In this document: positions 6,471 through 19,220 of the stretch, piece after piece | How positions within the stretch are numbered: position 1 is the first letter of the stretch | Layout: each line of letters starts with the position of its first letter | Assembly (NCBI RefSeq): GCF_900188065.1 | Contig: NZ_FZNQ01000026.1 | Coordinates: forward strand, 1-32,878 | Length of the DNA stretch: 32,878 nt | Reading direction: 5' to 3' | From: Halorubrum vacuolatum | Lineage (GTDB): Archaea; Halobacteriota; Halobacteria; Halobacteriales; Haloferacaceae | The notes under the pieces: model-generated | Told to the model about the DNA's origin: nothing | Seen by the model: the letters and a program-made list of their open reading frames with translations, nothing else | Databases searched by the model: none | Program-made: the position numbers and the translations under genes

Positions 6471-6638
6471 ACCTCCCTCTCTTCGGCCGACCTGAAACGT
6501 CTTTCTCAATCTTTCATACGTGCTGATGGGGGTGATCGTTACCGATCGGATGACGGATGCCGACGCGGAGCTCGTGAATGTGAGCGGGCTGCGGGGTCAA
6601 CGCTCAATATGCCACGGGTTTCATCGATCCACTGAGTG

Positions 6639-7439
6639 ATGAAGGTCATCGAACGCGGTCATGGGACCGAGAGGGTTGCGATCGTCGGCGGTATACATGG
6701 AGATGAACCGGCCGGAGAGCGGATAGTGAATCGTCTGGCGGACCGGATAGACGATGATGCGGAAAAAACGATACAGCTGATCATCGCCAACGAACCCGCC
6801 CTTAAACGGGGTGAACGATACACGAGCGTCGACCTCAACCGATCGTTTCCCGGTGATCTCGAGGGTGAAACGTACGAAACCGTACTGGCGGCACGCCTGA
6901 AACGACTGCTGGAGGGGTGTGATGCGGTCCTTGCGTTGCATACGTCACGGAGCGCCCCGCCGCCCTTTGCGGTCTATAGCAGCCTGACGGAGTCGGTTAG
7001 GCGAACGGTCACGGCGCTTCCGGTCGAGTACGCGCTGGATTCAGGAACGCTTCGCGACACGACGCTCGATTCCGTCGTTCCGCACGCCGTGTCGTTCGAG
7101 ACCGGAAGACAAGGGAGCGAAGAAGCCGTTGAGGTCGGTTTTGAGGGTGCGCTCTCGTTTCTGCGTGCCCACGGGGCCGTGACGGACATGGACCCCTCGT
7201 TCACCGAAACGACGGTCGTGGAGGGTCAGCGGGAGGTTCCGAAGGGTGATGGAACCCCGCACGTCTACTATAACAACTTTGAACCGCTGCCGAAGGGAGC
7301 AATCTTCGCGGAGGATGACACGTACACCCATCGGGTTGAACACGACGACCTCGTCCCCGTTCTCGCCAGCGAACACGGATACGAGAACCTGTTCGGCGTG
7401 TATGCGACTGTCAAGCAAACGCTTGATCCGCCGAGTTGA
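6639..7439 (+). CDS. M14-type succinylglutamate desuccinylase/aspartoacylase family protein
   Basis: The 266-residue zinc hydrolase has GGIHGDEPAG, with zinc ligands His20 and Glu23 (HxxE), then VDLNRSFPG (the Asn-Arg substrate carboxylate contacts) and ALHTSRS with the third ligand His101. This is the aspartoacylase/AstE branch of the carboxypeptidase M14 fold, which removes acyl groups from N-acyl amino acids or short conjugates. A small beta-rich C-terminal domain with KGAIFAEDDTYTH follows. ATG at 6639 is chosen; the GTG directly before it is an alternative. The neighbouring amino-acid oxidase and the downstream peptidase genes fit use of amino-acid derivatives. An insertion sequence lies 12 bp after its stop codon but does not cut the gene. 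Confidence 0.88.
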   Translation: MKVIERGHGTERVAIVGGIHGDEPAGERIVNRLADRIDDDAEKTIQLIIANEPALKRGERYTSVDLNRSFPGDLEGETYETVLAARLKRLLEGCDAVLALHTSRSAPPPFAVYSSLTESVRRTVTALPVEYALDSGTLRDTTLDSVVPHAVSFETGRQGSEEAVEVGFEGALSFLRAHGAVTDMDPSFTETTVVEGQREVPKGDGTPHVYYNNFEPLPKGAIFAEDDTYTHRVEHDDLVPVLASEHGYENLFGVYATVKQTLDPPS

Positions 7440-7466: not shown

Positions 7467-7528
7467 CTGTAAGACGGTGGGATAGGTCGTCAAATCAAAG
7501 GAAGTGAAGCGGGAAATCAGCGATGCCT

Positions 7529-8356
7529 ATGTCGAAGATCTCCCGCTTCACGAGCAAGGCGGTCACGTTAGCTAAAAATGCTGTTGGTGGCCGAGGCGAA
7601 GCCGCCGCCCCCGAAAGGGGTGGGGGCTTCGCCGACTACGCCGTCGTTTCGCTCCACTGTCTCCGGATTTACCTAGAGAAATCCTACCGCGAGGCGCTTG
7701 ATCTCCTGAGCGAGATGCCACAAATAGTGGCCGAGATCGGTCTCGAAGCGTCCGATCTCCCGTATCACTCGACGCTAGTCAAGGCGTTTGACAGATTACA
7801 GATGAAGATCTGGCGAGTGCTGCTGCGCCTCTCGGCGCAGCTGCACGACACCTCCGGCCACGCCGCCATGGACGCGACGTTTTTCGACCGCGAAACCGCC
7901 AGCAAGCACTACTGCCGCCGGACGAATTATCGTGTTCAGACGCTGAAAACGACCGCGCTCGTCGATGCAGCCTCACAAGCTGTTCTCGACGTTCACTGTA
8001 CGACCGAGAAACGCCACGACACGCAAATCGGCTGGCAACTCGCCCGCCGCAACGCGGGCGAGATTGCCAGCCTCGCCGCTGACAAAGGCTACGACTGGCA
8101 GCAATTACGCGAAAAACTCCGAGAAGAGGACGTGAGACCGCTGATCAAACACCGCGAGTTCCGACCCGTCGATTGCGCGCACAACGCGCGAATCGACGAG
8201 TCTCTGTACGGCCAAAGAGCGCTGTCTGAGACCGTCTTCTCGACGATCAAGCGTACGCTCGGCCACGCGGTGCGTGCCCGAGCGTGGTACCGCGAATTTC
8301 GTGAGATCGTCTTGATGTGTGCGGTCTACAACATCAAACGAGCGGTGACACAGTGA
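7529..8356 (+). CDS. IS5 family (ISH1 group) DDE transposase
   Basis: The 275-residue protein starts at the second of two close ATGs (MSKISRF), the usual start of haloarchaeal relatives; the ATG at 7523 is the alternative. It has the RNase H-like transposase layout: first Asp in HAAMDATFFDRE, second Asp in SLAADKGYDW, and catalytic Glu in SETVFSTIKRTLG, followed by the conserved YREFREIVLMCAVYNIKR end. It catalyses cut-and-paste movement of its own element. No frameshift or stop interrupts it. Near the 5' end the DNA at 7595-7633 forms a long hairpin that encodes the EAAAPERGGG linker. Its second base before the stop lies only about 30 bp from the right terminus. Confidence 0.95.
   Translation: MSKISRFTSKAVTLAKNAVGGRGEAAAPERGGGFADYAVVSLHCLRIYLEKSYREALDLLSEMPQIVAEIGLEASDLPYHSTLVKAFDRLQMKIWRVLLRLSAQLHDTSGHAAMDATFFDRETASKHYCRRTNYRVQTLKTTALVDAASQAVLDVHCTTEKRHDTQIGWQLARRNAGEIASLAADKGYDWQQLREKLREEDVRPLIKHREFRPVDCAHNARIDESLYGQRALSETVFSTIKRTLGHAVRARAWYREFREIVLMCAVYNIKRAVTQ
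7595..7633 (+). repeat. long hairpin inside the transposase mRNA
   Basis: The arms 7595-7611 and 7617-7633 pair at 15 Watson-Crick positions plus one G-U, with one mismatch and a 5-nt loop (CGAAA). The structure begins 66 nt after the transposase start codon. It may slow translation or limit transposase made from outside transcripts; this is inference. Confidence 0.7.
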
Positions 8357-8522: not shown

Positions 8523-9908
8523 ATGACAACACTTTCGCCGACGGCGATCGGCAAGGCGTACCTCGACACGCATGCGTGGGAGTTGCTCACCGCGCTGTCC
8601 GACCTCGACGATCGAATGCCCGGTCATGAAGGCGAGGCAGTGGGGAGCAAACTGGTGGCGGAGGGGTTAGCTGAGGCCGGATTACGCAACGTAACACGGA
8701 CGTCCTTTCCGATCCCCGGCTGGTGGCGCGACGGCACGTCAGTAACCGTCCGTCGCAAACGTCGTGATGCCGTCTTCGAGGACACACATGAACTGGTCGA
8801 ACTACCGGGAACGCCGTCCGGGACGATCACCGGCGAGATCGTCGATATGGGGTACGGGCTCCCGGAGGATTTCGAGGGGGTCAACCTCACGGGAACGATC
8901 GCGATGGCGTCAAGCCTTACCCCGGACGACTACGGCCGGTGGGTCCATCGAAGCGAAAAGTACAGCTATGCGGCGGAGTCCGGTGCTGAGGCGTTTTTGT
9001 TCTACAACCACATCCCGGGCGCGCTCCCTCCCACCGGCAGCATCGGACGTCGCACCGGGCCAGGACCGATCCCGGCGGTCGGTCTCAGCAAGGAGGTCGG
9101 CTCGCGTCTCGTCAGACGCTGTGAGGACGCCCCGCCGGACGGGGGGACCGAAGCGACGGTCACGGTTGACGCACGGAACGAACCCGCCACGTCCGCGAAC
9201 GTTGAGGCCGTCGTCGGTCCCGATACCGACGAGGAGGTGCTTTTCACGGCACACGTCGACGCACACGATGTCGGAAACGGAGCCAACGATAACGGGTTCG
9301 GTTCCGCACTCGCCGTGGGAGTGGCACGGATCCTCGCAGCGATCGAGGATGACCTCGAAACGCGCGTACGGATCGCCGTCTTCGGAGCGGAGGAGACGGG
9401 GTTGTACGGCTCATACTACTGGACCCACACGCACGACCTCGACCGTGTCAAATGTGTACTCAACGCGGACGGCGTGGGGTACTCACGCGATCTCGAGATA
9501 CACACGCACGGATTCGAGGCGATCGGGGAGGCCTTCGCGGAAGTCAGCGATGAACACGGCGTCCCGATAGCGACCGACGATGGCTTGCGCCCACACAGCG
9601 ACCACTGGCCGTTCGTACAGCGCGGGGTCGCTGCAGCACAGGCCCGATCGACCTCGGACGACAGCGGTCGTGGATGGGGCCACACGCATGGTGACACGCT
9701 GGATAAACTGGATCCTCGTGACCTGCGGGACCTATCAGTACTGTGTGCCGCCGGAATCGCGAAACTCGCCGAGTCGGATCGTCCGATCGACGAGCGATCG
9801 AGCGACGAAATACGAGACGAAGCGGTCGAAACGAAACACGACGTCGGCATGAAAGCGACGGACACGTGGCCGTGGGGTGAGCCCCGTGATTGGCCATGGG
9901 ATCGATGA
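8523..9908 (+). CDS. M28 family zinc aminopeptidase
   Basis: The 461-residue protein belongs to the M28 aminopeptidase family, with a PA-like inserted domain at about 100-220. The metal site reads FTAHVDAHDVGNGANDNGFG (His244 is the first ligand, and Asp lies in NDNG), then GAEETGLYGS with the catalytic Glu pair, NADGVGYS with the third ligand and GHTHGDTLDKLDP with the last His. Such enzymes remove N-terminal residues from peptides with two zinc ions. There is no signal peptide or membrane helix, so it is probably cytoplasmic. It lies upstream of the peptide transporter, which suggests breakdown of imported peptides. The C-terminal 40 residues are charged and end in repeated Trp-Pro motifs. 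Confidence 0.9.
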   Translation: MTTLSPTAIGKAYLDTHAWELLTALSDLDDRMPGHEGEAVGSKLVAEGLAEAGLRNVTRTSFPIPGWWRDGTSVTVRRKRRDAVFEDTHELVELPGTPSGTITGEIVDMGYGLPEDFEGVNLTGTIAMASSLTPDDYGRWVHRSEKYSYAAESGAEAFLFYNHIPGALPPTGSIGRRTGPGPIPAVGLSKEVGSRLVRRCEDAPPDGGTEATVTVDARNEPATSANVEAVVGPDTDEEVLFTAHVDAHDVGNGANDNGFGSALAVGVARILAAIEDDLETRVRIAVFGAEETGLYGSYYWTHTHDLDRVKCVLNADGVGYSRDLEIHTHGFEAIGEAFAEVSDEHGVPIATDDGLRPHSDHWPFVQRGVAAAQARSTSDDSGRGWGHTHGDTLDKLDPRDLRDLSVLCAAGIAKLAESDRPIDERSSDEIRDEAVETKHDVGMKATDTWPWGEPRDWPWDR

Positions 9909-10477: not shown

Positions 10478-12157
10478 ATGCGTCAAGAGGCCGAAACGAA
10501 CCGAAGAGAATTTTTAACGAAGGCAAGCGCGACGGCTGGGGTCCTCGGACTCACCGCAGCTGCCGGATGTACTGATGACGAAGCCGACGATACGGACGAT
10601 ACGGGCGCTGATGTGGCCGACGAATTGGGTGAGCAGCTACCGACGTACGAGTTCCTCAACAACGCCGAGAGCTACAATCCACCTCGACACGACGCGATCA
10701 ACCTCATGGCCAATCAGTTCAACGAACTCGGCCTCGATACGGACGTCGAGGTGCTGGAATGGGGAACGCTGTTCAATCGCGTCGACGTGGAGTACGACTA
10801 CGACTTCTCGCTGTGGCACACGTTCTTTACCATCGACCCGGTGCTGGAGTTGAGTTCGACCATGCACTCCGAGAACACCGATCCGGGCGAGGGGAACTTC
10901 GCGGGCTACGAGAACCCGGACGCCGATGAGCTGATGGACCAGTATCTCGTCGAACCCGACGAGGAACGGCGGATCGAGCTGGTTCACGACCTACAGCGGA
11001 CCCTGATGGATGACCTGCCGCAGATGCCGGTCATCGACATGCCGTTCCTCGCCGTATTCAACAACGAAGTGGTCGACAACTGGGAGCCGGACCTGCCCCT
11101 CGGGTACAACTCCTACTGGACGATGATCAACCTGGAGATGCAGAACGGCGAGGACACACTGGTCGGGTACTGGCCGGAGGCTCTCGACACGATGAACCCG
11201 CTCGGCCACAACGACGAGAACAAGCACACGTACAACTTCGACATCATGTACGACAGCGTCGTCCGGCTGGATAACGAGGGCGAGATCAATACGGATGTCA
11301 GCCTCGCCACCGACTTCGAGCGGGTCGACGAGGCGACGATGGAGTACACCATCCGCGACCACACCTTCCACGACGGCGAGGACCTCACCGTGGAGGACGT
11401 CGCCTTCTCTTATAACTACATCACCGAAAACGAGGTGCCGCTGTACTCGGTGCAGGCGAATTTCATCGAGGAGGCGGAAGTCGTCGACGACGAAACGGTC
11501 CGGATCCACATGCCCGAGGACAACCCGCTCGGACCGTTCAACCTGCTCGTTGGAACCCAGATCCCGATCCTTCCGGAACACCGCTGGGCGGATCGCGATG
11601 AGCCGAGCGAGGCGAGCGTCGACGAGCCAGTCGGCTCCGGACCGCTCCAGTTCGACTACTGGGATCGCGGTGCGGAACTCGGTCTCTCGCGATTCGACGA
11701 CCATTTCGCGCCGGTCGACTTCGAGCAGCGGATCTGGCGGATCATCCCCGAGGCGTCGACCGTGTGGGAGAACCTACGCGAGGGCGACCTCAGCTACGAA
11801 ACGTTCGGCCGGATCGACCGACAGCTGGACGAAAACCAGGACTTGGACCAGATCACGGTGCTGGCTGACCCCGCCACGTCGTTCTGGCACTGCACGCCCA
11901 ACCAGCGGACCGAGGGGCTCGACGATCCCGAGGTTCGGAAGGCGGCGTTCAACGCGATCCCGCGCACGGCGATCGTCGACCAAATCCTCTTCGGCGTTCC
12001 GGACACCGGATTCAACGTCGTCAGCTCCGCGTTCGGCCCGCTCCACACCGAAGACGTCACCGAATACGAGGAGGACATCGAGGTTGGCATTCAGCGGTTG
12101 CAGGACGCCGGCTACGTGTTCGACGAGGAGGGGATGGCTCACCACCCACCGGAATAA
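10478..12157 (+). CDS. peptide ABC transporter substrate-binding lipoprotein, circularly permuted family 5
   Basis: The 559-residue protein has a twin-arginine signal (NRREFLTKA, Arg9-Arg10) and a lipobox AAGC with Cys31, so it is exported folded and anchored as a lipoprotein. An acidic linker (32-52) precedes the binding domain. The domain order is unusual. Residues 56-224 (NLMANQFNELGLDTDVEV, then YDFSLWHTF, FAGYENPDADELMDQY, QRTLMDDLPQMPVIDMP) match what is normally the C-terminal part of OppA/DppA. Residues 225-559 (DTLVGYWPEALDTMNP, YDSVVRLDNEGEI, FHDGEDLTVEDVAFSYN) match the normal N-terminal and middle parts and stop at LQDAGYVFDEEG, just where the other part would begin. This reads as a circular permutation. 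It should deliver peptides or similar solutes to the permease encoded downstream. Confidence 0.9.
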   Translation: MRQEAETNRREFLTKASATAGVLGLTAAAGCTDDEADDTDDTGADVADELGEQLPTYEFLNNAESYNPPRHDAINLMANQFNELGLDTDVEVLEWGTLFNRVDVEYDYDFSLWHTFFTIDPVLELSSTMHSENTDPGEGNFAGYENPDADELMDQYLVEPDEERRIELVHDLQRTLMDDLPQMPVIDMPFLAVFNNEVVDNWEPDLPLGYNSYWTMINLEMQNGEDTLVGYWPEALDTMNPLGHNDENKHTYNFDIMYDSVVRLDNEGEINTDVSLATDFERVDEATMEYTIRDHTFHDGEDLTVEDVAFSYNYITENEVPLYSVQANFIEEAEVVDDETVRIHMPEDNPLGPFNLLVGTQIPILPEHRWADRDEPSEASVDEPVGSGPLQFDYWDRGAELGLSRFDDHFAPVDFEQRIWRIIPEASTVWENLREGDLSYETFGRIDRQLDENQDLDQITVLADPATSFWHCTPNQRTEGLDDPEVRKAAFNAIPRTAIVDQILFGVPDTGFNVVSSAFGPLHTEDVTEYEEDIEVGIQRLQDAGYVFDEEGMAHHPPE

Positions 12158-12226: not shown

Positions 12227-13204
12227 ATGAGTAAAGCGAGTTTCATAACGAGACGGATCCTGCAACTCGGCGTGACCTTCTGGGCAGTCGGAACCGTCCT
12301 GTTCCTGCTGTTTCGACTGATGCCCGGCGACCCGACGGCGTTCGTCGTCTCCGCACAGATGACCCCGGAGGCGAGACAGCGAGTGATCGAAAGCTTCGGC
12401 CTCAATGAGCCGTTACACATCCAGTATATCCAGTTCCTTCAGAACGCGCTCACGCTGAACTTCGGGCAGTCGTTCCACACGAACGAGCCGGTGCGGGATG
12501 TCATCTGGACGTTCCTCCCGAACACGCTGGTGTTGATGCTGACCGCGTTCGTGATCGCGTACATACTGGGGGTTACACTCGGCGTGTTTACCGGCTGGTA
12601 TCGAGGCTCCCGGTTCGAGAAGACGACGGTCGTGACCGCGCTGACCGCACGGAGCGTGCCGACGTTTTACGTCGGCCTCATCGTGTTGTGGATCTTCGGC
12701 GCGGGCCTCGGTGTGATCCCCATGAGCGGGATGGGCAGCGCCGGCGTGGAACATGAGTCGTTCGCTGCACGCGTCTTCACGCTGGACTTCCTCCACCACC
12801 TGATCGCGCCCGCCGCCGTGCTCGCGTTCTACTACATGGGATATCCGCTTCTCATCATGCGGTCGAGCATGATGGAGGTTCTCTCACAGGACTTCATCGA
12901 CGTCTGTCGCGCGAAGGGCCTCTCGGAGCGGACGATCATGTTCAAACACGCCGCGCGCAACGCCTTGTTGCCGATCATTACGGCGGCGGCGATCGCCCTC
13001 GGATACGCGGTCGGCGGGAGCGTACTCATCGAGACCGTGTTCGGGTGGCCCGGGATCGGCCGGGAGATGGTCAACGCGGTGCTCCGACGCGACTTCCCGG
13101 TTGCACAGGGCACCTTCATGGTGCTTGCCGCGACGATCATCATCCTGAACTTCGTCGCCGACCTGCTGTACGGCTATCTCGACCCACGGGTGACGTACGA
13201 CTGA
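12227..13204 (+). CDS. dppB: peptide ABC transporter permease, DppB/OppB type
   Basis: The 325-residue inner permease begins with a transmembrane helix (LQLGVTFWAVGTVLFLLF) and FRLMPGDPTAF, the hallmark of DppB/OppB N-termini. About six transmembrane helices follow. The EAA-type coupling loop, which docks on the ATPase, is DFIDVCRAKGLSERTIMFKHAARNALLP (split across residues about 222-250). It ends with GSVLIETVFGWPGIGREMV and DLLYGYLDPRV, both family signatures. It lies 69 bp after the binding-protein gene and 6 bp before dppC, forming one operon. Confidence 0.93.
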   Translation: MSKASFITRRILQLGVTFWAVGTVLFLLFRLMPGDPTAFVVSAQMTPEARQRVIESFGLNEPLHIQYIQFLQNALTLNFGQSFHTNEPVRDVIWTFLPNTLVLMLTAFVIAYILGVTLGVFTGWYRGSRFEKTTVVTALTARSVPTFYVGLIVLWIFGAGLGVIPMSGMGSAGVEHESFAARVFTLDFLHHLIAPAAVLAFYYMGYPLLIMRSSMMEVLSQDFIDVCRAKGLSERTIMFKHAARNALLPIITAAAIALGYAVGGSVLIETVFGWPGIGREMVNAVLRRDFPVAQGTFMVLAATIIILNFVADLLYGYLDPRVTYD

Positions 13205-13210
13205 TACACA

Positions 13211-14194
13211 ATGGCAACACAAGACGAACCCTCGATATTCGCGGACCTCGACGACGGCGCCACCGAGGAGGACGTAGAGAGCGTGAACCGGTGGGAGCGT
13301 ACCCTCCGGCTCTGGCGGGAAACGATCGGTGAACAGTGGCGCATGCTCACGGACGACCTGCTGGTGAAACTCGCCATGGTCACGCTTACGTTCTTCATGG
13401 CCGTCGCGATCTTCGCGCCGTTGCTCGCGCCGCATGGGCCGCTGACCCGGCAGTACGAGACGGACGCGGAGATCATCATCGCCGACTGGGTCGACCCGGT
13501 ATTTATCGACTCGGAGTCAGCGTACATCCTCGGGACGACCTCCCAAGGGTACGACATCCTCAGCCAGCTGATCTATGGGTCGCGTGCCGCGCTGCTGGTC
13601 GGACTGCTCGCCGCGGTGTTCACCGCCGGGATCGGAACGTTAGTCGGGCTGACCGCCGGCTACTATGGCGGCAAGATCGACGACACGCTGATGCGGATCG
13701 TCGACTTCCTCTACGGGATGCCGCTGTTGCCGACGGTGATCATCCTCGTCGCCCTGTTGGGCCCGAGCCTGTGGAACATCATCTTCGCGATCATCGTCCT
13801 CCAGTGGCGATCGACGGCACGCGTGATCCGCTCGCAGGCGCTCTCGTTGCGTGAGCGACCGTTCGTCAAGGCAGCACAGGTCGCGGGCGCGAGCGATTGG
13901 CATATCATCTCCAGACATCTCGCGCCGAACGTGCTTCCGCTGTCGTTCCTCTATGGGGCGTTCGCCATCGCGTGGGCCATCCTCGCGGAGGCGGGCGTCT
14001 CGTTCATCGGCCTCGGTGACCCCAACCGTGTGTCCTGGGGGACGATGTTGCAGTCGTCGCGTGCGTACGCGGCGCTCGACTTCGGTGTCTGGTGGTGGTT
14101 CGTGCCGCCGGGCATCTGTATCGGCCTCGTGGTCATCAGCGGGTTCCTGATCGGCCGTGGCTACGAGGAGATCACGAACCCCGAACTCAGATAA
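13211..14194 (+). CDS. dppC: peptide ABC transporter permease, DppC/OppC type
   Basis: The 327-residue permease has an acidic N-terminal cytoplasmic extension (about 55 residues), then a first helix (LAMVTLTFFMAVAIFAPLLA) followed by the DppC motif HILGTTSQGYDIL-like sequence YILGTTSQGYDILS and RAALLVGLLAAVF. The ATPase-docking loop is FVKAAQVAGASDWHIISRH with LAPNVLPLS. It ends in the GISFIGLGDP-type motif (AGVSFIGLGDPNRVSWG) and a last helix. It pairs with DppB to form the channel. The stop codon is one base before the dppD start, indicating tight coupling. Confidence 0.93.
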   Translation: MATQDEPSIFADLDDGATEEDVESVNRWERTLRLWRETIGEQWRMLTDDLLVKLAMVTLTFFMAVAIFAPLLAPHGPLTRQYETDAEIIIADWVDPVFIDSESAYILGTTSQGYDILSQLIYGSRAALLVGLLAAVFTAGIGTLVGLTAGYYGGKIDDTLMRIVDFLYGMPLLPTVIILVALLGPSLWNIIFAIIVLQWRSTARVIRSQALSLRERPFVKAAQVAGASDWHIISRHLAPNVLPLSFLYGAFAIAWAILAEAGVSFIGLGDPNRVSWGTMLQSSRAYAALDFGVWWWFVPPGICIGLVVISGFLIGRGYEEITNPELR

Positions 14195-14195
14195 T

Positions 14196-15248
14196 ATGAC
14201 AGTACTCGACGTCTCTGACCTCGAAGTCTACTACGAAACGGAGGCCGGCCCGGCGAAAGCCGTCGACGGGATTTCCTTCTCGATCGAGGAGGGGGAGAAC
14301 CTCGGAATCGTCGGCGAGTCGGGCTGTGGCAAGACCACCCTCGCGAAGGCGATCATCGGGATCCTCCCCGACGAGGGGTACGTGAACAACGGTTCGATCG
14401 AGTTCAACGACACGGATCTCACCGAACTCCCCGATGCCCAGCGTCGCCGATATAAATGGGAGGAGATATCCATGATCGCCCAGTCCGCGATGAACGCGCT
14501 CGATCCGGTTTACACGATCCGCGAACAGATCGTCGAGGCGGTCGAGACCCACCGACCCGGGACGGGCCGAACCGAGGCGAACGAGATCGTCGCGGAGATG
14601 TTCGATCTCGTCGGACTCGACGCGGCTCGCGCCGACGACTATCCACACCAGTTCTCCGGCGGGATGCGTCAGCGGGCGATGATCGCGATGGCGCTCGCGC
14701 TGAAGCCGTCGCTGGTGCTCGCCGACGAGCCGACGACCGCGCTCGACGTGATCATGCAGGACCAGATCCTGAAACGGATCGGTCGGATCCAGACGGAGAT
14801 CAACTCCTCGATGATGGTGATCACCCACGACGTTAGCGTCGTGGCCGAGACCTGCGATCGCGTCATCGTGATGTATGCAGGGAAGATCGCCGAGGAAGGA
14901 CCGGTCGAGGAGATCTTCGGTCGGCCGTATCACCCGTACACGATCGGTCTGAAGCGGGCGTTCCCGAACATCCGGAAATCCGACCAGGACCTGCTGTCTA
15001 TCGCCGGCTATCCCCCCGAGTTGGTGGATCCGCCTTCGGGCTGTCGGTTCGCCGAACGCTGTCCGCTCGCGACAGACGAGTGTCGGGAGTTCGAACCGCC
15101 GGCACACCACAACAACGGTCTGCGATCATACTGCCACCGCGCAGACGAGATAGATGACGGCTTCCGAGACCGTGCCGATACCGCCGAGACATGGGCCGAT
15201 ACGGATGCCGCTCGTGCCATCGATGCGCTCGCCGAGGGGGGCGATTGA
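14196..15248 (+). CDS. dppD: peptide ABC transporter ATP-binding protein, DppD/OppD type
   Basis: With the ATG at 14196, immediately after the dppC stop, the protein has 350 residues. It has Walker A (GESGCGKTT), the ABC signature (FSGGMRQRAMIAMAL), Walker B (LVLADEPTTALD), and the H-loop (VITHDVSVV). After the ATPase domain comes the oligopeptide transporter C-terminal domain, with RPYHPYTIGLKRAFP and Cys-containing GCRFAERCPLATDECRE. In relatives with an Fe-S cluster similar cysteines act as ligands; here the role is uncertain. It should form a heterodimer with DppF. The C-terminal 35 residues are acidic and variable. The dppF start follows the stop by one base. Confidence 0.93.
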   Translation: MTVLDVSDLEVYYETEAGPAKAVDGISFSIEEGENLGIVGESGCGKTTLAKAIIGILPDEGYVNNGSIEFNDTDLTELPDAQRRRYKWEEISMIAQSAMNALDPVYTIREQIVEAVETHRPGTGRTEANEIVAEMFDLVGLDAARADDYPHQFSGGMRQRAMIAMALALKPSLVLADEPTTALDVIMQDQILKRIGRIQTEINSSMMVITHDVSVVAETCDRVIVMYAGKIAEEGPVEEIFGRPYHPYTIGLKRAFPNIRKSDQDLLSIAGYPPELVDPPSGCRFAERCPLATDECREFEPPAHHNNGLRSYCHRADEIDDGFRDRADTAETWADTDAARAIDALAEGGD

Positions 15249-15249
15249 G

Positions 15250-16350
15250 ATGAGCCTAAACACTCCCATGGACGACGAGACGCTGTTGGAGGTCCGTAAC
15301 CTCGAGAAGCACTTCCAAGTGGACGAAGGGATCATCTCGAGCCTGCTACGGAGCGTGACCGGGGCGGAAGCCGACTACGTCCACGCCGTGGACGGCGTCT
15401 CCTTCGATCTCAAGCGCGGCGAGACGCTCGGGCTCGCGGGCGAGTCCGGCTGCGGAAAGACGACGACGGGAATGTCGCTCGTCAAACTCCACGAGCCGAC
15501 CGATGGGTCCATTCGCTTCCGTGGTCGGGACCTCACGGAGGCCGACGACGACGAGCTGGCGCAGTTCAGACAGAACGCCCAGATGATCTTTCAGGATCCC
15601 TTCGAGTCGTTGAACCCTCGAATGACGGTCTACGACACCATCGCCGAGCCGCTGCGGATCCACGACGTCCGCAACGAAACGGCACGAGTCCGGCGCGCTC
15701 TGGAGTTCGCGGAGCTACAACCCCCGGACCAGTATTTCAACCAGTATCCCCACGAGCTCTCGGGCGGCCAGCGACAGCGAGTCGCCATCGCCCGGGCGCT
15801 CGTGTTGGACCCGGACTTCATCGTCGCCGACGAGCCGGTGAGCATGCTCGACGTCTCGCTGCGGGCGGGCGTGCTCTCGCTGATGGAACGGATGACCGAG
15901 GAGTTCGACCTCTCGGTCGTGTACATCAGCCATGACCTTTCGCTTCTCAGGCACATGTGTGACCGGCTCGCGATCATGTACATGGGAAAGATCGTCGAGA
16001 AGGGGCCGACCGAAGACGTGATCGAGAACCCCCAGCACCCGTACACGCGGTCGCTGATCAACGCGGTTCCCGTCCCGGATCCCGGCATCGGGCGCGAGCG
16101 GGTTGAACTCGGCGGCGAAGTGGGTGACGCCATCGATGTTCCCTCGGGCTGTCGGTTCCACGGCCGCTGTTCGGAGTACATCGGCGACATCTGCGAGACC
16201 GAGGAGCCGCCGCTGGAAGGGAAAGCCGACTTCGAAGGGAGACAAGAGGTCGCCTGTCACCTCTACGAGCCCGCGGACGATGTCGTGGAGGCGAGGGTTG
16301 GGGAGACCACGGACACGGGCGACGACTCCGCGGCATCCGCGGACGACTGA
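15250..16350 (+). CDS. dppF: peptide ABC transporter ATP-binding protein, DppF/OppF type
   Basis: The 366-residue protein starts at ATG 15250, one base past the dppD stop. Walker A is GESGCGKTTTG, the Q-loop is MIFQDPFESLNPRM (typical of DppF/OppF), the signature is LSGGQRQRVAIARAL and Walker B is FIVADEPVSMLD, followed by the H-loop VYISHDLSLLRHMC. The C-terminal transporter domain carries GCRFHGRCSEYIGDICE. An insert at about 25-45 (GIISSLLRSVTGAEADY) precedes the Walker A, as in many archaeal DppF proteins. It completes the five-gene transporter. The last 30 residues are acidic and probably disordered. The gene converges with the TldD/PmbA-family gene, 31 bp apart. Confidence 0.93.
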   Translation: MSLNTPMDDETLLEVRNLEKHFQVDEGIISSLLRSVTGAEADYVHAVDGVSFDLKRGETLGLAGESGCGKTTTGMSLVKLHEPTDGSIRFRGRDLTEADDDELAQFRQNAQMIFQDPFESLNPRMTVYDTIAEPLRIHDVRNETARVRRALEFAELQPPDQYFNQYPHELSGGQRQRVAIARALVLDPDFIVADEPVSMLDVSLRAGVLSLMERMTEEFDLSVVYISHDLSLLRHMCDRLAIMYMGKIVEKGPTEDVIENPQHPYTRSLINAVPVPDPGIGRERVELGGEVGDAIDVPSGCRFHGRCSEYIGDICETEEPPLEGKADFEGRQEVACHLYEPADDVVEARVGETTDTGDDSAASADD

Positions 16351-16381: not shown

Positions 16382-17836
16382 TTACTTCGATCGCTCGATC
16401 GGCAGCGACAGACGCATTGCCGGCGCCGTAACCGCGTACGGGAGCCGTGATTTGTGTTTCGAGGCGACACCGGTGAGCGTCCGGCGCTCGCGGCTGAGCG
16501 CGTCGAGCGTCTCCAGCCTCGCGGGCGTCCAGACGGCGGTTCCGGAGATCGCGCCGCCGAACGCGCCGTCCTCGATCCGAAATCCCTCGGCGATCGGGAA
16601 CTCGACGGTGCCGCCATCGGCGCTTCCCTCCAGCCGCTCCGCCACGTCGTGTGCATACGGCGCGCTTGGCGGCATCGCGCCGGCGCGCTGCGTCCGCTCG
16701 AACGGGTCCCGGTAGTGGCCGGGCGTAAACCGACGGATATAGACGTCGGCAGCAGCGAGCAGTTCCTCCCGCGTCGTGTCGCCGGCGGCGACGTCGAGGT
16801 GACGGTGATGGATCCTGGGCGCCTGCTCGTATCCGAGCGCTGGGACGACGTTGCCCGCGGGGACGCGATTCGCCTCCGTGGCCGTATGGGTGTCGTGGAG
16901 GAACGACTCCACGCGACCGTCGTCGACGAGCCTGATGGGGGTAGTGGGACGGCACTCGGCGTCGTACGCGCGTGCCGCCCAGGAGCCCGCGGCAACGCCG
17001 TCGTCGACGGTGAGAGGCGCGTCGGTCAGCCGGTCACCGCGGTCGAATGGAGTGAAGCCGAACGCCTTCACGTCAGCGGCGAGGTAGCCCGCAAGCTCGT
17101 GACAGATCTGGGCGGCCGCCTGTGGGCCGAGTACCACCGTCAGTTCGCCGGTCGGGATATCAGACGAGGTGGCCGCAGCAAGCGTCGCAGCGTCGCGGTC
17201 GGCGGTATCCAAGACGTCCGGCACGCGCTCAAGGAAGGCGCCGCCGCGAGTGCTGCCCGCGTGGCGGCGGACCTTCGAGTCGGCCGCCTTCGGGACGAGC
17301 GTGGCGTCGAGACTTGCACGGTCGATGGTGTGTCGGACGACGCTGCCGGCAGTCGTCGCAACCGTGGCGATGACGCGACGGTCCTCGTACACAACCCGTG
17401 CACGATCGAGCGGCGTGGCGATGTCGGCGACCGCGTCGGCGACGGTTTCTCGTTTCACGTCGAGGTCGACTGTCGTCGACGGGGAGGTTTCCCAGCCGTC
17501 GTGGACACCTCGGTGGAGCGAGGACACGTCGACGCGGGCTGGGGTCGACTGACCAAGCCGTTCGCCGCCCATCCTCGCGCGGTTCGCAAGTTCCGTCAGC
17601 GTGTCGGTGGAGAGATCCGTCGAAAACCGATAGGCGGCTGCACCCTCGGCGAAGACGCGACACCAGACGCCCGTCGCCGTGCGGTCGGCGTCGCTTCGGA
17701 CCCCGCTTTCGGTGACGACGATCTCGGTACCCTTCCGGTCGATACCGCCGACCTCCGCGAACGCGACGCGATCGTCCGCTTTTAAAATGGAGAGGAGTTC
17801 ATCGACCGCGTCGGCGACCGTCTCGTGATCCGGCAT
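16382..17836 (-). CDS. TldD/PmbA family metallopeptidase-like protein (TldE-like)
   Basis: The 484-residue protein has the two-domain TldD/PmbA architecture (peptidase family U62), with the central region GELTVVLGPQAAAQICHELAGYL and the late VKAFGFTPFDRGD and C-terminal GAFGGAISGTAVW motifs. In bacteria TldD and TldE form a heterodimeric zinc protease that degrades unfolded peptides. TldD carries HExxxH, TldE does not. Here His246-Glu is present, but the second His is missing (HELAGYL), so it resembles the non-metal subunit, or its zinc site differs. No partner gene lies in the window. The ATG at 17836 is chosen because it begins family-like sequence (ADAVDELL) and coding-type codons. It is divergent from the amidohydrolase gene. 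Confidence 0.8.
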   Translation of the reverse strand: MPDHETVADAVDELLSILKADDRVAFAEVGGIDRKGTEIVVTESGVRSDADRTATGVWCRVFAEGAAAYRFSTDLSTDTLTELANRARMGGERLGQSTPARVDVSSLHRGVHDGWETSPSTTVDLDVKRETVADAVADIATPLDRARVVYEDRRVIATVATTAGSVVRHTIDRASLDATLVPKAADSKVRRHAGSTRGGAFLERVPDVLDTADRDAATLAAATSSDIPTGELTVVLGPQAAAQICHELAGYLAADVKAFGFTPFDRGDRLTDAPLTVDDGVAAGSWAARAYDAECRPTTPIRLVDDGRVESFLHDTHTATEANRVPAGNVVPALGYEQAPRIHHRHLDVAAGDTTREELLAAADVYIRRFTPGHYRDPFERTQRAGAMPPSAPYAHDVAERLEGSADGGTVEFPIAEGFRIEDGAFGGAISGTAVWTPARLETLDALSRERRTLTGVASKHKSRLPYAVTAPAMRLSLPIERSK

Positions 17837-17901
17837 CAACGTGGATTGCCGCTCGCGGGACTTGAAACCACGCGGGTCCGTCCACTCTCGCCGACGTGTC
17901 A

Positions 17902-17909
17902 ATATTTTT
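17902..17909 (+). promoter_or_regulatory. TATA box of the AbgA-like amidohydrolase
   Basis: ATATTTTT is centred about 29 nt before the ATG at 17934, in the 97-bp divergent gap shared with the TldD/PmbA-family gene. Confidence 0.5.
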
Positions 17910-17933
17910 CGGGACCGAACGCGTCCCTCCGGC

Positions 17934-19220
17934 ATGGAGGCACTCACCAGCTTCTCTGACGCATCGCTCCACGAGATCCGTCGCGACCTCCACGCACATG
18001 CGGAGGCCGGCTGGAAGGAGTTCCGGACGACCGCACTACTCGCCGCGGAGCTCGAAGAACTGGGCTATGAGGTCCACCTCGGCGCGAACGCCGTCGATCC
18101 CTCCGAGCGGATGGGTGTCCCCTCCGACGACGAGGTCGCGGCCGCTCGCGAGCGCGCCCTCAACGAGGGCACTCCCGCGGCGTACGTCGAACGGATGGAC
18201 GACATTACCGGCGCGGTCGCGATCAAGCGGTTCGGTGATGGGCCGACGATCGGGGTCCGGACGGACATCGACGCGCTCGAACGGCAGGAGGCGATGGACG
18301 ACGATCATCGACCCGCCCGTGAGGGCTTCGCGAGCGTCCACCCCGGGGAGATGCACGCCTGCGGACACGACGCACATGCGACGATCGGCCTCGGCGTCGC
18401 CCGCACGTTCGCGCAAGAGGGATTCGACGGGACGTTGAAGCTGTTCTTCCAACCCGCCGAGGAGGGCGGTCGGGGTGGAAAGCCGATGTCCGAATCGGGT
18501 CATCTCGATGACCTCGACCATCTACTTGCGGTTCACGTCGGTCTCGATGAACCGATCGGAACCGTCGTGTCGAGCTATGACGCCCCGCTTGCCAACGCGA
18601 AGGTCGACGTCACGTTCTCCGGCGAACCGGCTCATGCGGGCGGCGAGCCGAACGCGGGACGAAACGCGCTGCAGGCGGCGGCGGCGGCGATCGGCAATCT
18701 ATACGGGATCGCACGACACGGTGACGGACGGACGCGGATCAACGTCGGACGAGTGAGCGCGGATAACGCACAAAACGTGATCTGTGAGGAGGCGACGATG
18801 CGCGTCGAGGTTCGCGGTAGCACACACGATCTCAACGAGTATATGCTCGGTCGCGCACGGGAGGTGATAGACGGTGCCGCGACGATGCATGACGTCGATT
18901 ACGGGACGGAGCTCTACGGCAAGACGACGACGTTTGAGAACGACGAGTCGGTGATCGAACGGGTAGAGGCAGCGGCGGAAGCCACGGACGCCGTTGACGA
19001 GGTGATCAGAACGGAGTTCGGCGGCAGCGAGGACGCATCCTACCTCATCCGACGCGTTCAGGAGTCGGGCGGCACCGCGACGTATCTCGGTATCGGGGCA
19101 AGTAACCCGTCGGGGCACCACACGGCGTACTTCGATATCGACGAAACGGCGATCGACATCGGCGTAGACGTTATCACCGAGGCGATCCGTCGGTTGAATC
19201 CCTCCAGCTCCGTCGATTGA
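17934..19220 (+). CDS. M20 family amidohydrolase, AbgA-like
   Basis: The 428-residue protein matches the AbgA branch of the M20 dinuclear zinc amidohydrolases. The N-terminus (IRRDLHAHAEAGWKEFRT) resembles that of p-aminobenzoyl-glutamate hydrolase subunit A, and an insert after it (VDPSERMGVPSDDE) is also AbgA-like. Metal-site motifs are MHACGHDAHATIG (Cys143, His145), FQPAEEGGRGG (Glu176-Glu177), LAVHVGLDE and GHHTAYFDI. A lid domain lies at about 215-340. AbgA works with AbgB to split folate catabolites; no AbgB-like gene is here, so the substrate may be another N-acyl amino acid or peptide. Start at 17934 follows a TATA box. Placement next to the peptide transporter suggests processing of imported amides. 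Confidence 0.88.
   Translation: MEALTSFSDASLHEIRRDLHAHAEAGWKEFRTTALLAAELEELGYEVHLGANAVDPSERMGVPSDDEVAAARERALNEGTPAAYVERMDDITGAVAIKRFGDGPTIGVRTDIDALERQEAMDDDHRPAREGFASVHPGEMHACGHDAHATIGLGVARTFAQEGFDGTLKLFFQPAEEGGRGGKPMSESGHLDDLDHLLAVHVGLDEPIGTVVSSYDAPLANAKVDVTFSGEPAHAGGEPNAGRNALQAAAAAIGNLYGIARHGDGRTRINVGRVSADNAQNVICEEATMRVEVRGSTHDLNEYMLGRAREVIDGAATMHDVDYGTELYGKTTTFENDESVIERVEAAAEATDAVDEVIRTEFGGSEDASYLIRRVQESGGTATYLGIGASNPSGHHTAYFDIDETAIDIGVDVITEAIRRLNPSSSVD

Follow-up and report, generated by a model that had tools for sequence, protein, structure and literature searches.

The window analyzed here is a 32,878-nucleotide stretch of Halorubrum vacuolatum DNA. Comparisons of sequence confirm that the open reading frame at its positions 10478-12157 (plus strand) encodes a putative Tat lipoprotein of 559 residues, which belongs to solute-binding protein family 5 (OppA/DppA type) and is circularly permuted. 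We put at roughly 90% the probability that the protein is a genuine circularly permuted form of a family 5 (cluster C) lipoprotein, operates with DppBCDF and represents an old, widespread family, further permutations having occurred independently in other lineages. The features of the locus, with the evidence used to assign them, are:

8523-9908, plus strand: M28 peptidase with no evident signal peptide (profile search)
10478-12157, plus strand: circularly permuted family 5 solute-binding lipoprotein, 559 residues (phmmer, Pfam, canonical profile)
10478-10570, plus strand: Tat-type signal (RREFLTK) and lipobox (AAGC, Cys31), now ahead of the old C-terminal third (read from the translation)
10571-10663, plus strand: acidic linker and first strand of the relocated segment, residues 32-62 (translation, AlphaFold)
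10664-11083, plus strand: relocated old C-terminal third, residues 63-202, equivalent to model positions 339-476 (profile, phmmer, Pfam)
11084-11140, plus strand: joint between the old C-terminus and the old N-terminus, residues 203-221 (profile)
11141-12115, plus strand: old N-terminal two thirds, residues 222-546, equivalent to model positions 10-329 and ending at the LQDAGY helix (profile, phmmer, Pfam)
12116-12157, plus strand: new C-terminus VFDEEGMAHHPPE and stop, the cut lying in the loop past the LLxEAGY helix (translation)
12227-13204, plus strand: DppB-type permease, in the permease clade adjoining the main permuted family (profile search, DppB tree)
13211-14194, plus strand: DppC-type permease (profile search)
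14157-15248, plus strand: DppD-type ATPase, start codon uncertain, overlapping the preceding gene (profile search)
15154-16350, plus strand: DppF-type ATPase, start codon uncertain (profile search)
16382-17947, minus strand: TldD-like protease (profile search)
17841-19220, plus strand: M20-type amidohydrolase/peptidase, start uncertain (profile search)

The C-terminal third of the family (residues ~56-217) is placed ahead of the N-terminal two thirds (~222-546) in this protein. Searches of the PDB sequences with phmmer matched family 5 binding proteins twice, with the blocks in swapped order; for AppA (1xoc), residues 222-546 aligned with positions 19-344 and residues 40-172 with positions 346-473. 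Membership of the family is met, as the Pfam model SBP_bac_5 (PF00496) was matched with 158.6 bits against a curated cut-off of 32.4, with residues 276-546 falling on profile positions 6-278 and the front part alone on 290-352. Against a canonical profile (model length 493) made from 38 normal-order proteins only, residues 63-202 aligned with model positions 339-476 (70.9 bits) and residues 222-546 with 10-329 (160.6 bits). Once re-permuted in silico the sequence aligned as one block (model 13-476, 242 bits), the top score among 200 shuffled controls being 1.3 bits. The full set of family 5 structural segments is present, each once (model 10-329 and 339-476 of 493), and the canonical N-to-C order of PF00496 is not met; given the swapped blocks, the protein is homologous to family 5 but a permuted variant rather than a canonical member. 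This bears out the original prediction of an OppA/DppA-type protein in which nothing was missing or duplicated and the old internal junction had become the new termini, and the limits it gave (residues 56-224 and 225-559) hold, with an error of only a few positions. Neither of the outcomes that it named as fatal, namely the lack of similarity of residues 56-224 to the C-terminal part of OppA or a second copy past residue 559, occurred: a second C-terminal copy is absent, the stop lying at 12155-12157 and the permease gene beginning at 12227. The region contains no repeat that exceeds a weak 22-mer in length, and no tandem or leftover copy lies near the gene in the window. No OpuAC/ProX-type (glycine-betaine) binding protein family appears among the Pfam and NCBIfam matches. 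An assembly or single-genome artefact was ruled out by full-length homologues of 61-83% identity in more than 12 other genomes; a pseudogene, chance similarity and a mere haloarchaeal oddity were each considered and rejected.

At its N-terminus, MRQEAETNRREFLTKASATAGVLGLTAAAGC, the protein displays a twin-arginine signal with a lipobox, and the features of an archaeal Tat lipoprotein (NRREFLTK...AAGC, residues 8-31) are met by reading only. The cut is in the loop leading from the LLxEAGY helix (here LQDAGY followed by VFDEEGMAHHPPE and the stop) to the strand LPTYEFLNN, which now stands behind the signal peptide, and the old C-terminus (about SYWTMINLEMQ) is joined directly to the old N-terminus (NGEDTLVGYWPEALDTMNP). 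The close spacing of the natural termini is known from structures of OppA and DppA. AlphaFold predicted with good confidence a compact solute-binding protein (SBP) fold for both the window protein (pLDDT 84.2, pTM 0.80) and a member from Brevibacillus centrosporus (pLDDT 93.2, pTM 0.87). The 50 best Foldseek matches were all family 5 (cluster C) binding proteins, with TM-scores of at most 0.57 (query TM-scores ≤0.49 and ≤0.54) over ~350 aligned columns; such values are to be expected when a sequential aligner is given a permutant. None of these 50 structures is a permuted homologue, and in a search of the PDB sequences with the Brevibacillus protein no listed chain had a best match spanning the junction; we found no solved structure that is permuted.

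The genome of H. vacuolatum itself encodes three permuted and three normal-order family 5 proteins, and full-length permuted relatives, with identities down to ~25%, are found in many haloarchaeal genera. Single-piece matches spanning the junction were also recovered on alphaproteobacterial plasmids of Nitratireductor, Maritalea, Ketogulonicigenium, Microvirga, Neorhizobium and Roseomonas. Public genomes were scanned with a junction query made from close members, the alignment of 13 diverse members being too variable; this yielded 121 loci, the best 80 of which are all permuted with a single copy of the C-terminal part. These 80 are mostly alphaproteobacterial, with others from Trueperaceae (Deinococcota), Thermomicrobiota/Chloroflexota, Armatimonadota, ANGP1 and Bacillota. 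Within the samples drawn the main family is rare in bacteria: at an E-value of 1e-30 it was detected in a single genome out of 299 from Pseudomonadota and one out of 151 of Chloroflexota type, the one being the seed genome itself, and in a handful of the 249 Bacillota genomes. As the sampling was seeded by a permuted query, the proportions of permuted and normal-order proteins outside complete genomes are biased. Judged from these sequence matches, haloarchaea commonly carry the main permuted family, but the earlier suggestion of a haloarchaeal subfamily is too narrow, since the family is present in at least five bacterial phyla and independent permuted groups exist. As read from sequence, the lipid anchor of the archaeal proteins and of that from Brevibacillus has been transferred to the relocated segment; several of the proteobacterial members that were read have a signal peptide only, with no lipobox. 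Broken permuted genes were also observed in L317 (G616), G044:C10:26361-27741 and L208, with an in-frame TAG, a TGA or frame break, and a frameshift.

The gene lies in a typical Dpp/Opp importer context, being followed by genes for DppBCDF-type permeases and ATPases, and among the best 80 of the 121 junction-query loci a DppB gene is found 3' of the SBP gene at 77. This conservation bears on whether such genes might be recombined or decayed pairs, in which the C-terminal piece of one SBP gene is fused to the N-terminal piece of a second and no functional product results. Fusion of neighboring SBP genes is plausible as a step, and a few relatives are indeed broken (L208, and L317 with its in-frame TAG). 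However, intact open reading frames with a signal peptide and both parts complete occur at ~200 loci in two domains of life, the DppBCDF operon is conserved and single folds are confidently predicted, and hence we give this explanation almost no credence.

An M28 peptidase gene occurs close to 40 of the same 80 bacterial genes, and M28 genes also accompany the operons of Ketogulonicigenium and Roseomonas; the homologous operon of Halorussus salilacus has M20, M81 and TldD genes alongside, and that of Natrialba magadii several M28 genes plus TldD. In view of these peptidase genes at the window and related loci, we infer that the cargo is probably a peptide or an amide-containing compound. In E. 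coli DppA the termini of the dipeptide are gripped by R383 and D436 (PMC12136057). In our alignment, which is gappy and uncertain, D436 aligns with F117 and R383 falls, by eye, near E63. As far as this alignment can be trusted, the pair does not appear to be conserved in the permuted protein, which makes free dipeptides, or a DppA-like ligand in general, doubtful for the window protein. An IS5-family transposase gene (7523-8356) is located directly upstream of the M28 peptidase gene of the window, and ahead of it lies an AstE/AspA-like fragment (6636-7439).

Permuted family 5 proteins fall into five groups, of which group 1 is the main family that includes the window protein. Group 2 is a clade of Bacillota (L261, L309-L324) present in 16 of the 249 genomes sampled, with the cut ~3 residues past LLxEAGY. 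It shares ~55% identity across the whole protein with its normal-order sisters (G494; L326, L328, L337, L341, L342) and, as it is nested among normal-order proteins, the direction of change inferred from the tree, normal to permuted, is clear. Group 3 is found in three species of a single Archaeoglobaceae-like genus (family code f21), represented by L290 (G199), L291 (G190) and L292 (G244); Archaeoglobus fulgidus (DSM 4304) is presumably among these carriers (G199). Four congeners (L298, L300, L301, L302) have this protein in normal order, and the permuted version shares 83-88% identity with theirs. The similarity extends to the DNA, in which the two halves match the normal gene in swapped order, one stretch of 941 bp with 79% identity and another of 490 bp with 81%, while 59 bp of the start and signal region match it in place. 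The joint is a short SEEQKDT. The permuted and normal loci differ in their neighbors, the former being divergent to a dppBCDF set and the latter adjoining IF-2 and DUF1646 genes, and no tandem repeats or leftover copies were found around the permuted genes. A reversion from permuted to normal order in this genus is not formally excluded. Group 4 is a single protein, L102, from a different genus of the same family. This permuted SBP (L102:733-2391) ends in PGF, a transmembrane segment and RRRR; given this PGF-CTERM-like tail, it is probably anchored at its new C-terminus and not at the N-terminus. Group 5 consists of the haloarchaeal L060, L088 and L096, in which the cut precedes that of the main family by one helix, so that an AEELIQEGF helix stands at the N-terminus.

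On a tree of re-permuted and normal-order proteins the permuted label needs six changes, at least four of them forced by well supported branches, and the main family forms one side of a branch with moderate support (86, unstarred). Approximately unbiased (AU) tests (38 rows, LG+G4), for which the groups were named after the first tree had been inspected, rejected a single clade of all permuted SBPs (p=1.4e-5) as well as a clade uniting groups 3 and 4 (p=1.1e-10); the union of the main family with group 5, the second haloarchaeal group, was not rejected (p=0.075). The tree of DppB, an independent gene, places the permeases of the main permuted SBPs in one clade (support 99.5) and those of groups 2 and 5 outside it, with the group 2 permeases nested among those of the normal-order sisters. 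The main-family DppB clade spans Archaea and Bacteria, and its sister group is made up of permeases that accompany a few SBPs of normal order (L035, L285, L098, L101). Could all this stem from one ancient permutation, the normal-order relatives inside the groups being reversions? The cuts of four of the five groups share one loop, and the AU result for the main family and group 5 leaves room for it. Against it stand the rejection of a single permuted clade, the position of the Bacillota and second haloarchaeal permeases off the main DppB clade and the earlier cut of the latter group; accordingly, we consider this scenario very improbable and largely refuted. As far as phylogenies can show, then, permuted family 5 SBPs have had more than one origin, and it is likely that the family has a permutation hot spot, with at least four and probably five independent events, four of them at the same loop and one recent enough to lie within a genus (83-88% identity).

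The recurrence at one loop, together with the pairing of the main permuted SBPs with a single permease clade, might alternatively suggest that permutation is adaptive, the transfer of the anchor to the C-terminal segment altering how the protein docks to a dedicated permease lineage. However, the permuted SBPs of Bacillota use permeases nested among those of their normal-order sisters; the absence of a lipobox from several proteobacterial members means that the anchor is not the common factor, and co-inheritance within an operon requires no adaptation. We therefore regard an adaptive role as unlikely, though it retains more support than the scenarios of gene decay or of a single event.

Under the preferred reading, that of a true permutant recurring in an old transporter family, the old termini would have been fused, with new ones created in the loop that separates the LLxEAGY helix from the β-strand after it. 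The protein would be exported via Tat and lipid-anchored at Cys31, so that the anchor would be attached via the relocated C-terminal segment and not via the original N-terminus. It probably functions like an ordinary peptide-type binding protein, although both function and ligands are inferred: capture of a peptide or peptide-like ligand would be followed by closure of the lobes, docking and hand-over to the DppBCDF importer, and the cargo would probably be processed by cytoplasmic M28, M20 and TldD peptidases. The family is envisaged as old and as having spread, accompanied by a permease lineage of its own, across haloarchaea and several phyla of bacteria, with separate permutations arising in other lineages, mostly at the same loop. 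As to the origin, the gene may have been duplicated in tandem, fused and then trimmed at its outer parts, with retention of the start and signal peptide that it had at first. We favor this route, which follows the general model for natural permutants (PMC3320104), and the kept signal region and short SEEQKDT joint of group 3 fit it; it remains an inference, as none of 208 permuted open reading frames shows the duplicated layout of an intermediate (C-N-C or N-C-N).

Relative to family 5/cluster C SBPs such as OppA, DppA, AppA and NikA (PF00496), the window protein is alike in its whole-length homology, its dppBCDF context and, by prediction only, its two-lobe fold, and unlike them in that its segments are permuted and its termini and signal/anchor lie elsewhere on the fold. 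Most natural circular permutations are old, and many can be recognized only from structure. Among substrate-binding proteins, the glycine-betaine SBPs (OpuAC, ProX) were identified with CPSARST as circular permutants relative to molybdate-binding proteins and CysB (PMC2395249). That case is likewise a natural permutation of binding proteins; in contrast to ours it concerns a smaller, different SBP class, was detected from structure only at <24% identity, and no recurrent or recent event was reported. Saposin/swaposin and DNA methyltransferases are natural permutants of unrelated folds that have been attributed to duplication, fusion and truncation (PMC3320104), whereas in family 5 permuted and unpermuted orthologues up to 88% identical occur within one genus. 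Hence, circular permutation among binding proteins is already known, and the striking part is its recurrence in family 5 together with a recent within-genus case. In the full-text literature, searched incompletely and with few subscription journals, no account of permutation in family 5 SBPs was found. The coexistence of permuted and unpermuted orthologues at up to 88% identity, recurring in a well studied transporter family, offers an unusually good natural test of protein rewiring, since such near-identical pairs allow direct tests of how the change arose genetically, what it costs in fitness and how it affects folding and docking. It also implies that a widespread class of peptide transporters is mishandled without notice when they are annotated and aligned, with PF00496 split in two; the annotated examples that we examined are named only "ABC transporter substrate-binding protein".
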